Shown in pieces: positions 1 through 7,167 of a stretch of 7,285 nucleotides of DNA (within the stretch, counting starts at the first letter, position 1; each line of letters opens with the position of its first letter). Position numbers and translations under genes: made by a program. Source of the stretch: Candidatus Zhuqueibacterota bacterium. Lineage in GTDB: Bacteria; SM23-31. The notes beneath the pieces are model-generated. The model was given only the letters and a program-made list of their open reading frames with translations, searched no databases and was not told where the DNA came from. The DNA is taken from NCBI GenBank assembly GCA_022562855.1, contig JADFON010000085.1:1-7285 (forward strand). Direction: 5' to 3'.

Positions 1-73
1 TATACCTCCAATTTTTATTTTTTAATTCTTTCATTTCTTTATTCCATGGTTTATGATTTTTTTTAAATACCAT
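1..73 (-). CDS. start of a small Lys/Asn-rich ORF, possibly a phage NUMOD/HNH-type endonuclease (partial, runs off left edge)
   Basis: Reading leftward from an ATG at 73-71, 24 codons are open to the window edge. They begin MVFKKNHKPWNKEMKELKN. The ATG overlaps the TAA stop of the upstream virus-like gene by one base (TAATG), and a Shine-Dalgarno match, AGGAG (81-77), lies just ahead, so translational coupling is likely. The HKPWNK stretch resembles the short PWNK-containing motifs near the start of many phage HNH/GIY-YIG endonucleases (NUMOD3-like DNA-binding repeats). That is recognition of a short motif only; no catalytic part is visible. A second SD-like GGAGG lies at 9-5 near the edge. 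The real downstream gene could therefore start just outside the window and this could be only a short leader peptide. Confidence 0.4.
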   Translation of the reverse strand, partial: MVFKKNHKPWNKEMKELKNKNWRY

Positions 74-1338
74 TATCTCCTTTCTCCCCAAGTTAAACTA
101 CTAATCACATTTGCATTTGCATTAGAAGATCTAGCAGCCACAGTCAATTTATCACTTGAATTACCAGAAGCATTTAAACTTAAACTTATTGATTCTGGAT
201 TAGATAATGATGTAATAGTTTCAGTCATTTGACCATCTTTTCCAACAGTGAAAGAAAGTAAAGGTATTCCTCCACCAAATGTTCTTGATCCTATAATTAT
301 TTCTGCAGAACTATTAATTGGATCTACTGCACTAAATGTTCCTGAAATATTTGAATTAAGTAATATTCTAAAAGTTGATTGTTTTAATTCAGATGCTGCT
401 GAGATAATTTGAGGAAGTAATTGACTTCTATTTACTATTCCGTTAAATGTTCCACTCAATTTAATTGAATATAAGTGTTCTTCAGTTGTAGTTATTCCTT
501 GTTCTACTAATAATCCTCCAGTAAAAACAGTCATTTCAGGAGATTCTCCACCGAGCACACTCACACTAGAGCAAATAGCTTTATAAGTTGATTGTTCAGA
601 ACCATCATCAACAACTTCTTGTTCATATCTTAATGGTAAATTAGCTGTTTTCATGTATGGACCAGAAAAAGTATTTGAATTCTCCATAACATGTAATGTC
701 TTTTTTCCTATATCAATTTCATCCACATCAACTGAGAATGAAACTCTCCCTGCTGATAACCATTGAAATTCTATTCCATAAATATTATTTTTAGTAACAT
801 CTAAATTAAATCTAGAAACACCACTTCCATTTAGAGTATCTTTATTCCAATTTGATTGTTCAATTCGATTGTTCACTACAGTACCATCTGTAGAGGTTCT
901 TCTTACTACTGCTAACGCATTTCCACTTAATTCAAAAAATAATCCATCATCTTTATCAAAATAACCCCATCTCCTTATAGTTCCATTCATAATACTACCA
1001 ACTGCACCAGTCATAACAATACTCAAACTTCTACCAGCTTGATAAATATTGTGTTTTCTCTGAGAAAAAATTACACTATCACCACTTGCAGAACCACATA
1101 CAAGATTTACTGCAGATTCATTTGTTAGATGTACAGTTTCAGCACTTCCAAGAGCTATAGTATCCCAAAAAAACGGTTTTTTATCATATCTAATAATATT
1201 ATCAGAGATAGCAAAAGGATGTGCCGTTTTTGTTCTACCAAAAACATCTGACTGAGTTAAAACTTTTAATTCTCCTTCTGCTGTCGCTTTAACTTGATTT
1301 GTCCAACCACTTCCTACTATTATTACTTGGTGAGCCAT
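73..1338 (-). CDS. virus-like virion structural protein (marine phage type)
   Basis: A 421-residue protein with no signal peptide or membrane segment that is mostly predicted beta structure. Several blocks recall a structural-protein family common in marine tailed phages and some large DNA viruses: VFGR near residues 32-35 followed by a DNIIRYDKKPFFWDT block (46-60), WGYFDKDDGLFF (124-135), FQWLSAGRVSF (191-201), PYMKTANLPLRYE (227-239), and a Ser/Asn-rich beta-type C-terminus ending in LTWGERR. In such proteins the central GRV.F...PYMKTANLP.RYE region is the most conserved. The role (capsid decoration, fibre or head-associated protein) is unknown. The start is the ATG at 1338; no Shine-Dalgarno is visible and the upstream DNA is very AT-rich. 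GC is about one third by eye, well below the plus-strand genes to the right, which fits viral origin. It is translationally coupled to the ORF at the left edge. The family assignment is from memory of conserved blocks, not a search. Confidence 0.65.
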   Translation of the reverse strand: MAHQVIIVGSGWTNQVKATAEGELKVLTQSDVFGRTKTAHPFAISDNIIRYDKKPFFWDTIALGSAETVHLTNESAVNLVCGSASGDSVIFSQRKHNIYQAGRSLSIVMTGAVGSIMNGTIRRWGYFDKDDGLFFELSGNALAVVRRTSTDGTVVNNRIEQSNWNKDTLNGSGVSRFNLDVTKNNIYGIEFQWLSAGRVSFSVDVDEIDIGKKTLHVMENSNTFSGPYMKTANLPLRYEQEVVDDGSEQSTYKAICSSVSVLGGESPEMTVFTGGLLVEQGITTTEEHLYSIKLSGTFNGIVNRSQLLPQIISAASELKQSTFRILLNSNISGTFSAVDPINSSAEIIIGSRTFGGGIPLLSFTVGKDGQMTETITSLSNPESISLSLNASGNSSDKLTVAARSSNANANVISSLTWGERR

Positions 1339-1504
1339 GTTTTTATTAATCTAAATGAATTTAAATATATTTCCAGTTTGATATATTGATTTTCCCAGAC
1401 TGTTATATGCTTACTGGTTTTTTGTCCGGCTACTCACAGGTAACCTTTTTCCCGAAGAATCTACCGGCATTACATCTTGTTTTATGTGTATTACTTTATC
1501 TACG

Positions 1505-1526
1505 TGTTGACACTTTTACATGTTTG
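1505..1526 (+). repeat. upstream degenerate copy of IS left-end motif (copy 1)
   Basis: TGTTGACACTTTT at 1505-1517 matches TGTTGGCACTTTT at 1584-1596 at 12 of 13 positions. Similarity continues with small gaps into ACATGTTTG versus GTACTGTTTTG, which is the start of the IS inverted repeat. It may be a remnant end of an earlier related element, or an extra transposase-binding site if the true IS boundary is further left. It also contains a consensus -35 hexamer, TTGACA (1507-1512), with TTTAAT 19 bp downstream (1532-1537). That spacing is longer than optimal, so promoter function is doubtful. Confidence 0.5.
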
Positions 1527-1540
1527 AGGTTTTTAATGTA

Positions 1541-1566
1541 CAAGGGATAGGCAAGCCTATCCCTTG
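1541..1566. repeat. perfect 11-bp stem-loop upstream of the IS
   Basis: CAAGGGATAGG (1541-1551) is followed by a 4-base loop (CAAG) and its exact complement CCTATCCCTTG (1556-1566). No T-run follows on either strand, so it is not a standard intrinsic terminator. It lies between the two copies of the TGTTGRCACTTTT motif and 28 bp from the IS left end. It could insulate the transposase from outside transcription, be a leader structure, or be part of a larger transposon end. Confidence 0.6.
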
Positions 1567-1593
1567 AGAATCGCTTGCATAATTGTTGGCACT

Positions 1594-1610
1594 TTTGTAC
1601 TGTTTTGTTA
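1594..1610 (+). repeat. left terminal inverted repeat of the IS
   Basis: TTTGTACTGTTTTGTTA pairs with the right-end repeat at 2642-2658 with two mismatches (positions 10 and 16). It lies outside the transposase coding region and 26 bp before the chosen start codon. Confidence 0.65.
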
Positions 1611-1625
1611 CCACACAAAACATAT

Positions 1626-1630
1626 GGAGG
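1626..1630 (+). promoter_or_regulatory. ribosome binding site that fixes the transposase start
   Basis: GGAGG lies five bases before the ATG at 1636. The reading frame is open further upstream, to a possible TTG at 1564, but that start would lie outside the IS inverted repeat and inside a hairpin. The ATG at 1636 is therefore preferred. Confidence 0.8.
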
Positions 1631-1635
1631 TGCCT

Positions 1636-2628
1636 ATGACAAGCAATACTCAAATGTACGTTGACAGACTGCATATAATCAAGTATTATTTACGTCATCG
1701 AATCAGTGTAACGGCGTTATGCAAACGGTTCAATCGTTCTCGAACGTGGTTCTATAAATGGAAACATCGGTATGATGCATATGGAGCCATCGGTTTAATG
1801 AACATCTCTCGCGGCGCTCCGGCACAACCGAATCAGACGCCAATGGATGTTGAGACTAAGATACTCGAATTCATCGAAGCCTTTCCTTCATACGGTCAGG
1901 TACGTATAGCAAACGAGCTTAACCGTAAGCAGGTCGTTGTAACATCTTCAGCAATCTATAACGTGTTGAGACGAAACAACTTAAACACCCGTAAGATGAG
2001 GCTCGAACATATCAGGATCAAAAGTGGTATCGTTACAACACCCTCCGATCTTGAACGTGCAAAAAACAGAGCAAAAACGCAGTCGCTGGATACCCGTTAT
2101 CCCGGTCATATCATCGGCATGGACGTCTTTTACGTCGGCACGCTCAAGGGTGTTGGGCGTATCTTTCAGATCACTGCCATTGACACCTACTCTTCGTATG
2201 CCTGGGCAAAGCTCTATACGGACAAATCAGCGCTCTCTGCTTGTGACTTTATGATTCATGTGCATAACAACAGCCAGGATATTCCAATTGAGTCAGTCTT
2301 GACCGATAACGGTCTTGAATTCACTACACATCATGCGTCAAAGAACCACAGTTTCGAACGGCTGCTGAGTGAACTCAACGTCAGACACCGGCTAACGAAA
2401 GTACGCCACCCGTGGACAAACGGCGCATGTGAACGGCTCAACCGAACCATACTCGAAGAGTTCTATCAACTTGCATTCAGAACAAAAATCTATGAAACGC
2501 ATGAGCAACTCAACGATGACTTAGAAAAGTACTTGAAGATATACAATTACCAAAGAACACATCAAGGCAAAAGAACAAATGGTAGAGTGCCCGCTGAACT
2601 CTATCTCTTACATAAAAAATCAGCCTAA
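1636..2628 (+). CDS. IS481-like family transposase (DDE, rve core)
   Basis: A 330-residue protein that should cut and join the element's ends with an RNase H-fold DDE active site. The N-terminal winged-helix/HTH region (about 11-54) contains VTALCKRFNRSRTWFYKWK. A second HTH-like segment (about 72-119) includes SYGQVRIANEL. The integrase core (about 156-285) carries the candidate catalytic residues D163 (IGMDVFYVG), D224 (LTDNGLEF) and E266 (NGACERLNRT). The C-terminal YNYQRTHQGKRTNGRVPAE block is typical of the family. The second Asp and the Glu are separated by 41 residues, longer than the roughly 35 usual in IS481-type enzymes. The core looks intact, with no frameshift or stop, so the protein may be active. 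Start chosen from the strong GGAGG and the IS boundary. Confidence 0.9.
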   Translation: MTSNTQMYVDRLHIIKYYLRHRISVTALCKRFNRSRTWFYKWKHRYDAYGAIGLMNISRGAPAQPNQTPMDVETKILEFIEAFPSYGQVRIANELNRKQVVVTSSAIYNVLRRNNLNTRKMRLEHIRIKSGIVTTPSDLERAKNRAKTQSLDTRYPGHIIGMDVFYVGTLKGVGRIFQITAIDTYSSYAWAKLYTDKSALSACDFMIHVHNNSQDIPIESVLTDNGLEFTTHHASKNHSFERLLSELNVRHRLTKVRHPWTNGACERLNRTILEEFYQLAFRTKIYETHEQLNDDLEKYLKIYNYQRTHQGKRTNGRVPAELYLLHKKSA

Positions 2629-2640
2629 ACTGTAAACACC

Positions 2641-2668
2641 TTGACAAAGCAGTACAAATAATTACATT
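2641..2668 (+). promoter_or_regulatory. possible hybrid promoter at the IS right end
   Basis: A perfect -35 hexamer, TTGACA (2641-2646), lies at the inner edge of the right inverted repeat and points outward. After 16 bp, TACATT (2663-2668), in flanking DNA, matches four of six -10 positions. Insertion sequences often create such promoters and could in this way influence nrnA. The -10 match is weak. Confidence 0.3.
2642..2658 (-). repeat. right terminal inverted repeat of the IS
   Basis: TGACAAAGCAGTACAAA is the inverted partner of 1594-1610 (15 of 17). It begins 13 bp after the transposase stop. Confidence 0.65.
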
Positions 2669-2820: not shown

Positions 2821-3846
2821 TTGCCTTTCGTGAAAGATTCTACTCAAGAAATAGACAAAATACTTGACACAATCCGTGAATACCGGCGGTTTGTCCTTAC
2901 CTCCCACATTAATCCGGATGGAGACGGTTTAGGTTCAGAACTTGCATTGTACCACTTTTTGAATAATCAACAAAAAGAGGTAATGGTATTGAATGATTCC
3001 CCGGTTCCTGCAACCTACCGTTTTATGGATTTGGAAGAAAATATTTTCAAAAGATATGGGAGCGAATACAAGGAAGATATTATCAAAGCCGATGTGATTT
3101 TTATATTGGATATTGCGGAGTTGAGCCGGCTTGGAGCGCTGAGGGGTGCGATTGAGGAGAGTCCGGCAAAAAGGATTTGCATTGACCATCACGTTTCGAA
3201 TAACTTTCCGGGCGATATTCTATATGCGGACGAGGCGGCGGCAGCTACTGGAGAAATGATAAAAAAACTGATTGACCGGAGCGATGAGAAACTAACTGTT
3301 GAGATGGCTGAGGCTCTTTACATTGCTCTTTTGTCGGACACCGGGTGTTTTAGATTTTCCAATACCAATGCGCGCGCGCATCAGTTAGGATCGGATCTTT
3401 TGAAGGCGGGTGCAAATCATCAGAGGATCTTTCACTATCTGTATGAAAATAATTCCTGGGAGAAAACAAGATTATATTCTCAAGCGCTGTCGACGTTAAA
3501 ACAGGAAGCGGATGGAAAGATTGCGACAATGATAATAACCCGGGATATGCTCAAACAATCCGGAGCTGCATATGAAGACATCGAAGGGTTTTCCGATTTT
3601 GCGCGGAACATAAAAGGTGTATTACTTTCGATATTATTTGTTGAATTGAAGAATACGAATATAAAAATCAGTTTTCGTTCCGGGAGTGATGTACTGGTAA
3701 ATAAGCTTGCAGGAGAACTCGGAGGAGGAGGTCATAAAAATGCCTCAGCGTCGGTTATTAAAGATCTATCTCTGGATGAAACGATAAGAAAAGTCCTGAA
3801 TATCGCAATTACTTATGTAAAAGTAAGTAACTTTAATCAATTATAA
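2821..3846 (+). CDS. nrnA: DHH/DHHA1 phosphoesterase, NrnA-type oligoribonuclease and pAp phosphatase
   Basis: A 341-residue soluble protein of the usual family length. NrnA enzymes degrade two- to five-nucleotide RNAs from the 3' or 5' end and dephosphorylate 3'-phosphoadenosine 5'-phosphate, using two metal ions (normally Mn). The N-terminal DHH domain shows HINPDGDGLGS (H29, D33, D35), DIAE (D97), the signature DHH at 122-124 and LSDTGCF (D173), together the expected metal ligands. The C-terminal DHHA1 domain carries GGGGHKNASA (301-310), which binds substrate. No ATG is available: the frame has a stop at 2785-2787, then TTG at 2821 and GTG at 2830, both without a clear Shine-Dalgarno, so the exact start is uncertain. 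It is probably co-transcribed with folE 32 bp downstream. It is the first host gene after the insertion sequence. Confidence 0.92.
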   Translation: MPFVKDSTQEIDKILDTIREYRRFVLTSHINPDGDGLGSELALYHFLNNQQKEVMVLNDSPVPATYRFMDLEENIFKRYGSEYKEDIIKADVIFILDIAELSRLGALRGAIEESPAKRICIDHHVSNNFPGDILYADEAAAATGEMIKKLIDRSDEKLTVEMAEALYIALLSDTGCFRFSNTNARAHQLGSDLLKAGANHQRIFHYLYENNSWEKTRLYSQALSTLKQEADGKIATMIITRDMLKQSGAAYEDIEGFSDFARNIKGVLLSILFVELKNTNIKISFRSGSDVLVNKLAGELGGGGHKNASASVIKDLSLDETIRKVLNIAITYVKVSNFNQL

Positions 3847-3878: not shown

Positions 3879-4436
3879 ATGGAAGATTTAATAAAAGATC
3901 TGCTTGTTAAAATTGGCGAAGATCCAGACAGGGAAGGTTTGCAGAGAACTCCGAAAAGAGTTTCAGAAGCGTTCGAGTTTTTAACAAAGGGTTATAGTGA
4001 AAATCTCGAAAGCCTGGTGAACAATGCTATTTTCAAGGAAAATTATGACGAAATGGTTCTTGTCAAAAACATAGATATTTTCAGCATGTGTGAGCATCAT
4101 TTATTGCCGTTCGTCGGCGTTTGTCACGTTGGATATATTCCAGATGGGAAAATTATCGGACTTAGTAAAATACCGAGAATTGTTGAAATGTTTTCGAGGC
4201 GGTTGCAGGTACAGGAGCGATTGACAGATCAGATAGCGGAATCGATCGACAGTGTTTTAAAACCGAAAGGAATCGGGGTGGTAATAAACGCACGACATCT
4301 CTGTATGATGATGAGAGGTATTGAAAAGCAAAACACGGTTGTAACCACAAGCAGTATGTTGGGTTCATTCAAGAAAAATCAAAGAACCCGTTCGGAATTC
4401 CTTAGTTTAATAAACCAGGTAAATACAACTTTTTGA
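3879..4436 (+). CDS. folE: GTP cyclohydrolase I
   Basis: A 185-residue cytosolic enzyme that converts GTP to 7,8-dihydroneopterin triphosphate, the first step of tetrahydrofolate (and other pterin) synthesis, acting as a homodecamer. [15 protein letters not shown] (14-28) is the family N-terminal signature. The zinc ligands are C71 and H74 in [10 protein letters not shown] and C142 in [10 protein letters not shown]140 is the likely counterpart of the catalytic histidine. VQERLT (111-116) and the [12 protein letters not shown] block also fit the type I enzyme. The retained cysteines and histidine mark it as the Zn-dependent FolE (type IA), not FolE2. Length is as expected for the shorter bacterial forms. 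A moderate Shine-Dalgarno, GAAGG (3868-3872), precedes the ATG. It lies 32 bp after nrnA, probably in one transcript. Confidence 0.97.
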
Positions 4437-4471
4437 GAATATTCAAATATTGTATTTACATAATCTTGCAG

Positions 4472-4510
4472 TAATTTTCCGGATTTTTTCGAAAGAGCGT
4501 CGGAAAATTA
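4472..4510. repeat. 10-bp perfect inverted repeat downstream of folE
   Basis: TAATTTTCCG (4472-4481) and CGGAAAATTA (4501-4510) are exact inverted copies separated by 19 bases that themselves contain a small TTTC/GAAA palindrome. The right arm is followed by an A-run, not a T-run, so a classical plus-strand terminator is not supported. It lies 36 bp after the folE stop and could be an mRNA 3'-end structure. The rest of the gap to the next gene (4437-4707, 271 bp) is AT-rich, with no other clear feature apart from the RBS. Confidence 0.45.
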
Positions 4511-4694
4511 AAAAAAATCTTGTAAAAGTCTATTGATATGATTATTTTCGTTCAATTATCATAAATTTTCTTGTTTTAAGTTGTTATTAATTATTGTGAT
4601 AATTGCACAATATATTGATTATTTGGAAGTTAGTAATAAACAGTTGCTGCATTTATTATTTAGCATAAATCTGGTTACGTGCAAATATTAATTC

Positions 4695-4699
4695 AGGAG
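4695..4699 (+). promoter_or_regulatory. ribosome binding site that fixes the start of the small conserved gene
   Basis: AGGAG ends eight bases before the ATG at 4708. The alternative in-frame GTG at 4699 overlaps this site, so it is unlikely to be the start. Confidence 0.7.
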
Positions 4700-4707
4700 T
4701 GAAAGTC

Positions 4708-5010
4708 ATGGGAAAAGTTATTTTCTCCGTTAGTTACGAAATTATTCCTGAGAAAAGGGATAATTATTTGGTGCTCATGAAGAAGATTAAGGAACAGATA
4801 AAGAGTTCCGAAAATCAGGATTATACTTTGTACGAAGACGCCGAGCGTCCTAATCTTATGACAGAGGTATATTTTCTTCAGAATAAGGGTGATTCGACTG
4901 ACAAAAAAAAGATTCAGGATGAGCAAACCGAATCCCTGTTGGGTCAAATCGAGCAATTTGTCGTTAACCAGGAGCAGGTCGCCATCAGGACCTTCAAAGA
5001 AATTATTTAA
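4708..5010 (+). CDS. conserved small protein of unknown function, possible dimeric alpha/beta-barrel (ABM-like) fold
   Basis: A 100-residue soluble protein, MGKVIFSVSYEIIPEKRDNY at the N-terminus, charged and rich in Lys, Glu and Gln, with no signal peptide, membrane segment or metal motif. The layout is an opening beta strand (VIFSVSYEI), a long helix (EKRDNYLVLMKKIKEQI), two strands (YTLYEDA, LMTEVYFLQ) and a second helix. That recalls ferredoxin-like proteins of the antibiotic-biosynthesis-monooxygenase superfamily, which usually dimerise. It resembles short hypothetical proteins I associate with Ignavibacteria and relatives, but I cannot assign a function. The start is set by AGGAG at 4695-4699. 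It sits alone between folE and ligA, with a 271-bp AT-rich upstream gap, so it probably has its own promoter. Confidence 0.75.
   Translation: MGKVIFSVSYEIIPEKRDNYLVLMKKIKEQIKSSENQDYTLYEDAERPNLMTEVYFLQNKGDSTDKKKIQDEQTESLLGQIEQFVVNQEQVAIRTFKEII

Positions 5011-5127: not shown

Positions 5128-7167
<2,040 letters not shown>

Follow-up and report, generated by a model that had tools for sequence, protein, structure and literature searches.

How did an AT-rich, virus-like block come to abut an insertion sequence (IS) and a row of housekeeping genes in a bacterial assembly, and is the join a property of the chromosome or of the assembly? We examined this in the whole of contig C91 (the window, 7,285 bp), which belongs to a metagenome-type assembly (MAG) of Candidatus Zhuqueibacterota with 491 contigs, 2.5 Mb and 79.6% completeness. 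The window held the following features.

1-74, minus strand: start of a further gene (MVFKKNHKPWNKEMKELKNKNWRY...), truncated by the contig end and coupled by TAATG to the structural gene.
73-1338, minus strand: intact gene for a 421-aa tailed-phage virion structural protein (PHROG 1645), with a predicted concanavalin/GH16-like beta-sandwich (residues about 40-263) and a C-terminal beta domain.
1339-1408, no strand: AT-rich stretch (20% GC) upstream of the phage gene, with the putative end of another phage ORF (AYNSLGKSIYQTGNIFKFI*).
1409-1486, no strand: 78-bp spacer from the phage block to the IS, at 42% GC similar to the host in composition and without a second copy in the MAG.
1487-2656, plus strand: IS481-family insertion sequence with TGTA...TACA ends, imperfect inverted repeats and no target-site duplication.
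1636-2628, plus strand: IS481 transposase (330 aa), above the NF033577 cut-off.
2821-3846, plus strand: DHH/DHHA1 phosphoesterase, NrnA-like, a host gene with 59% identity to the nearest relative genome.
3879-4436, plus strand: folE, GTP cyclohydrolase I, by family match.
4708-5010 (ORF from 4699), plus strand: gene for a small protein of about 100 aa, lying between folE and ligA; its weak similarity to the C-terminus of MFS_3 stays under the Pfam cut-off.
5134-7167, plus strand: ligA, NAD-dependent DNA ligase, by family match.

The 421-aa protein was searched against viral and bacterial data. It matched PHROG 1645 (virion structural protein) with an E-value of 5.5e-71 over profile positions 34-439 of 440, and the gene is a further member of an already known virion protein family. 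Its assignment to the virion is the annotation of that family, and presence in the particle is predicted. By tblastn, PHROG 1645 relatives were found in 171 phage records, mostly from Synechococcus phages and other cyanophages and all at less than 60% identity, and an alignment-based scan found family members on at least 551 IMG/VR contigs. The alignment-based scan of 84,980 species, with one genome per bacterial or archaeal species, returned only three genome contigs: a phage contig in a Verrucomicrobiota MAG (the neighbouring genes encode virion, tape-measure-like and ejection proteins), a 5 kb Gracilibacteria contig, and a locus (L124) in the closed chromosome of Candidatus Uabimicrobium amorphum. 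Within its own MAG the gene occurs as a single copy, and it was absent from five other genomes of the phylum. At the DNA level there was no match for positions 1-1600 in phage records and none for the whole window in plasmids. The first-pass annotation, made from the sequence alone, had proposed a viral origin for this block, and the almost exclusively viral homologues bear it out. The ORF is intact and undecayed. On the sequence evidence, the left block is well supported as a fragment of a tailed-phage virion module.

The narrower description of the gene as marine-virus-type did not hold, since relatives occur in cyanomyoviruses, in a podovirus from spring water and on many IMG/VR contigs. 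A tree of 41 relatives placed the window protein by itself on a long branch, which implies no particular phage type or host and leaves the word marine unjustified. Single-sequence patterns found no close relatives in IMG/VR. The PHROG 1645 proteins of T4-like cyanophages (Syn33_107 of Prochlorococcus phage Syn33 and SCREM1_178 of S-CREM1) were homologous to the window protein over almost the full length, including the C-terminal LxWxExR end, and in S-CREM1 the gene is followed by an overlapping next gene, as in the window. However, the cyanophage proteins showed about 29% identity to the window protein, another N-terminus (first ~30 residues) and other neighbouring genes. Podoviridae sp. ctYwJ313 (MW202701, Manatee Spring) and related IMG/VR contigs carry the same family with an overlapping next gene, but the ctYwJ313 protein was 28% identical to the window protein, which lies on a separate branch.

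The overlap in the window is a TAATG that contains the stop of the 421-aa gene and the start of the next minus-strand gene, with only about 24 codons before the contig start. The coupled neighbour seen in the first pass is therefore real. Its 24-residue peptide matched no Pfam family and had no convincing relative. On the other side, the in-frame AYNSLGKSIYQTGNIFKFI* peptide was not confirmed as the C-terminus of a phage protein known to be encoded upstream; upstream genes differ widely among relatives.

We modelled the 421-aa protein with AlphaFold2 (mean pLDDT 80, pTM 0.78; residues 1-30 unreliable). The model was nearly all beta. Residues ~40-263 aligned with GH16 glucanases (Z 19.0, rmsd 2.4 over 170 residues to 3d6e_A) and in the structure search also resembled concanavalin-like lectins, and the predicted model, at its pLDDT of 80, has the GH16 beta-jelly-roll fold. 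The GH16 catalytic ExDxxE motif was present in none of 38 aligned sequences (the window protein and 37 relatives); the protein shares the predicted fold of GH16 glycoside hydrolases but not their motif. No solved structure was reached by sequence search. The whole model matched uncharacterised proteins of uncultured tailed phages with a TM of 0.85. A GH16-type fold without the catalytic motif makes a sugar-binding virion decoration or fibre likely; a non-catalytic role of this kind is our best guess from the model, a shared fold alone being no proof of function. Such a protein, with its lectin-like domain, would decorate the particle or bind surface sugars at adsorption.

The model also resembled proteins of haloarchaeal tailed viruses and of giant viruses (Mimivirus, Bodo saltans virus, Pyramimonas orientalis virus and Pithovirus). 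These predicted likenesses suggest a very widely shared lectin-like virus module.

The base composition of the block was compared with that of the rest of the MAG. The lower GC noted in the first pass was confirmed, at 0.32 in the ORF at 73-1338 (minus strand) versus 0.39-0.45 in the right-hand genes. Raw GC as low as this occurred in 1 of 374 gene-sized MAG windows, rare yet not unique, and the decisive measure was GC at third codon positions (GC3). GC3 of the virion ORF was 0.109, against a mean of 0.453 (sd 0.047, minimum 0.337) for 55 ORFs, each 200 aa or longer, on the contigs sampled from this MAG (about 95 kb), and several viral relatives were equally low (0.075-0.124). The comparison of tetranucleotide profiles proposed in the first pass gave a matching result: about 0.5% of MAG windows were at least as distant as 1-1266, and the profile was ordinary for the MAG everywhere right of ~1800. 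The DNA of the left block is foreign to this bacterium, and the right-hand block (IS481, DHH/NrnA-like gene, folE and ligA) is ordinary host DNA.

The first pass had placed the change of composition near 1390, close to the IS. The closeness stands, but the point itself lies nearer 1408, about 78 bp before the IS: GC was 20% in 1339-1408 and 42% in 1409-1486, and the IS begins at 1487. Host intergenic DNA is also AT-rich (24-25% GC at 2659-2820 and 4437-4698), so the edge is located only to roughly 1338-1486. No second copy of 1380-1478 was found in the MAG, and a search of six genomes of the phylum for a second copy or parent gene of 1409-1486 gave chance-level matches only, two of them to signal-peptide-like starts. 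The exact junction and IS strings had no match in IMG/VR. Gene order upstream of the DHH gene is not conserved in related genomes, so no empty site could be read.

The element itself was assigned to IS481 by its transposase (263 bits to NF033577, cut-off 224) and by its ends at 1487 and 2656 (TGT...ACA, inverted repeats), which are common to other copies in the MAG. Pieces of the IS lie on six other MAG contigs and, on three of these, at or close to the contig end, the pattern that a repeat should leave where it interrupts an assembly. A complete sister copy on contig C77 has TATT on both flanks. In the window copy, by contrast, no direct repeat of 4-26 bp was found at the ends. Target-site duplications of about 4, 15 or 25 bp have been reported for IS481-type elements, on the eukaryotic branch (PMC10045372), and missing duplications have been ascribed to IS-IS recombination, to adjacent deletion or to insertion in the course of a rearrangement, this last case having been observed for an IS481 (PMC11708052). 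A duplication is an accessory feature that marks the insertion event and not the element, and single copies lacking one are documented (PMC11708052), so transposase and ends still place the element in IS481. With TATT at C77 and no duplication here, the two flanks of the window copy are probably of different origin. They probably did not start out together, which is compatible with a chimera through the IS as well as with a rearrangement in vivo.

The window copy (2267-2662) and that of contig C287 (3418-3813) shared 396 bp at 94% identity overall. The first and last ~100 bp of this stretch were identical and the part between was divergent. This mosaic may have arisen by gene conversion, or because the assembly switched from one copy to the other.

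The nature of the join, as distinct from the identity of the gene, we infer from these results taken together. The explanation that we place first, at an even balance of belief, is that positions 1 to ~1408 are a stray fragment of a tailed-phage virion module in an artefactual join, and not a stable prophage boundary. The fragment would have been joined to the host IS481 and the nrnA-like, folE and ligA genes while the library was prepared or the reads were assembled, in a region rich in repeats. The extreme GC3 mismatch, the undecayed gene, its single occurrence in the MAG and the unmatched IS flanks support a stray piece. Integrase, tRNA and att-like repeat were all absent from the 7.3-kb contig, in which only one edge of the phage block is visible. 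A search with phrog_2 matched 13 of 14 control genomes and was uninformative as a phage test; it led to contig C138 of the same MAG (L159, 1194-5415), which encodes small and large terminase subunits and a portal protein at a host-like GC3 of 0.42-0.49. C138 is likely to be a phage of this host, integrated or free. A phage binned with the host can thus share its composition, but the fragment in the window does not.

A chimera formed through the repeated IS, one of the options raised in the first pass, was upheld in part. The IS is multi-copy, its pieces lie at contig ends, and the duplication seen at C77 is missing here. However, the composition breaks ~78 bp outside the IS, in sequence that is not repeated in the MAG, so a chimera purely through the IS is not a full explanation. 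If two contigs had been merged inside the IS, the left one would still have phage DNA 78 bp from the host's IS. A false join of phage and host would have to sit at ~1408; otherwise phage and IS are true neighbours and the doubt falls on the right flank alone.

The main rival is a real chromosomal join, in which the edge of a recent prophage or a captured phage fragment received an adjacent IS481 insertion and the flanks were reshuffled by IS-IS recombination or deletion. We regard it as a serious contender that falls somewhat short of even. The IS family belongs to this MAG, the ~78 bp that separate the phage block from the IS are host-like, and no shared k-mer or repeat was found at the break. 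A relative of the virion gene sits in the closed Uabimicrobium chromosome amid virus-looking genes, and the lack of a target-site duplication also arises in vivo, including at an IS481 (PMC11708052). These points count against an artefact. Weighing on the other side are a GC3 mismatch without any amelioration, the lack of an integration gene or att repeat in view, the lack of relatives of the virion gene in the phylum and the lack of a direct repeat around the IS. In its specific form, with a distant tailed-phage structural module in the chromosome of a little-sampled phylum, fixed beside a resident IS481 by IS-driven rearrangement, the idea is unlikely, if far from negligible. Taken together, the various forms of a real in vivo join come close to half of the probability, and we slightly favour the artefactual join over them, at roughly an even chance.

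Insertion of IS481 into a phage or phage-plasmid of this host, with the right flank joined later through the IS, would explain an IS without target-site duplication, and the last ~100 bp, identical to the C287 copy, would permit copy switching. We consider this very improbable, as a conserved 40-nt IS string had no exact match in IMG/VR and the 78 bp adjoining the IS are host-like. That the left block is an ordinary, non-viral host gene of unusual composition is scarcely credible, for although AT-rich DNA also occurs in host intergenic regions, the homologues are nearly all viral, the viral library yielded phage and other virus proteins as the closest structural matches, and no close homologues were found in syntenic positions of related host genomes.

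If the artefactual join that we favour is correct, a phage gene has been wrongly counted in this MAG and could be misused for a phage-host link or as a case of gene transfer. A real join would hint at the host of a divergent branch within a virus protein family that is very common, and a true chromosomal module would link a distant phage lineage to a host. Hardly any links of the PHROG 1645 family to bacterial hosts came out of the genome collection searched. The locus in Uabimicrobium amorphum (L124, 60-10033) places a PHROG 1645 gene amid unassigned, virus-looking genes in a complete planctomycete chromosome. Its neighbours include several small proteins with C-terminal membrane-like segments and one transglutaminase-domain protein, and the locus may be an integrated virus of a kind not yet described.
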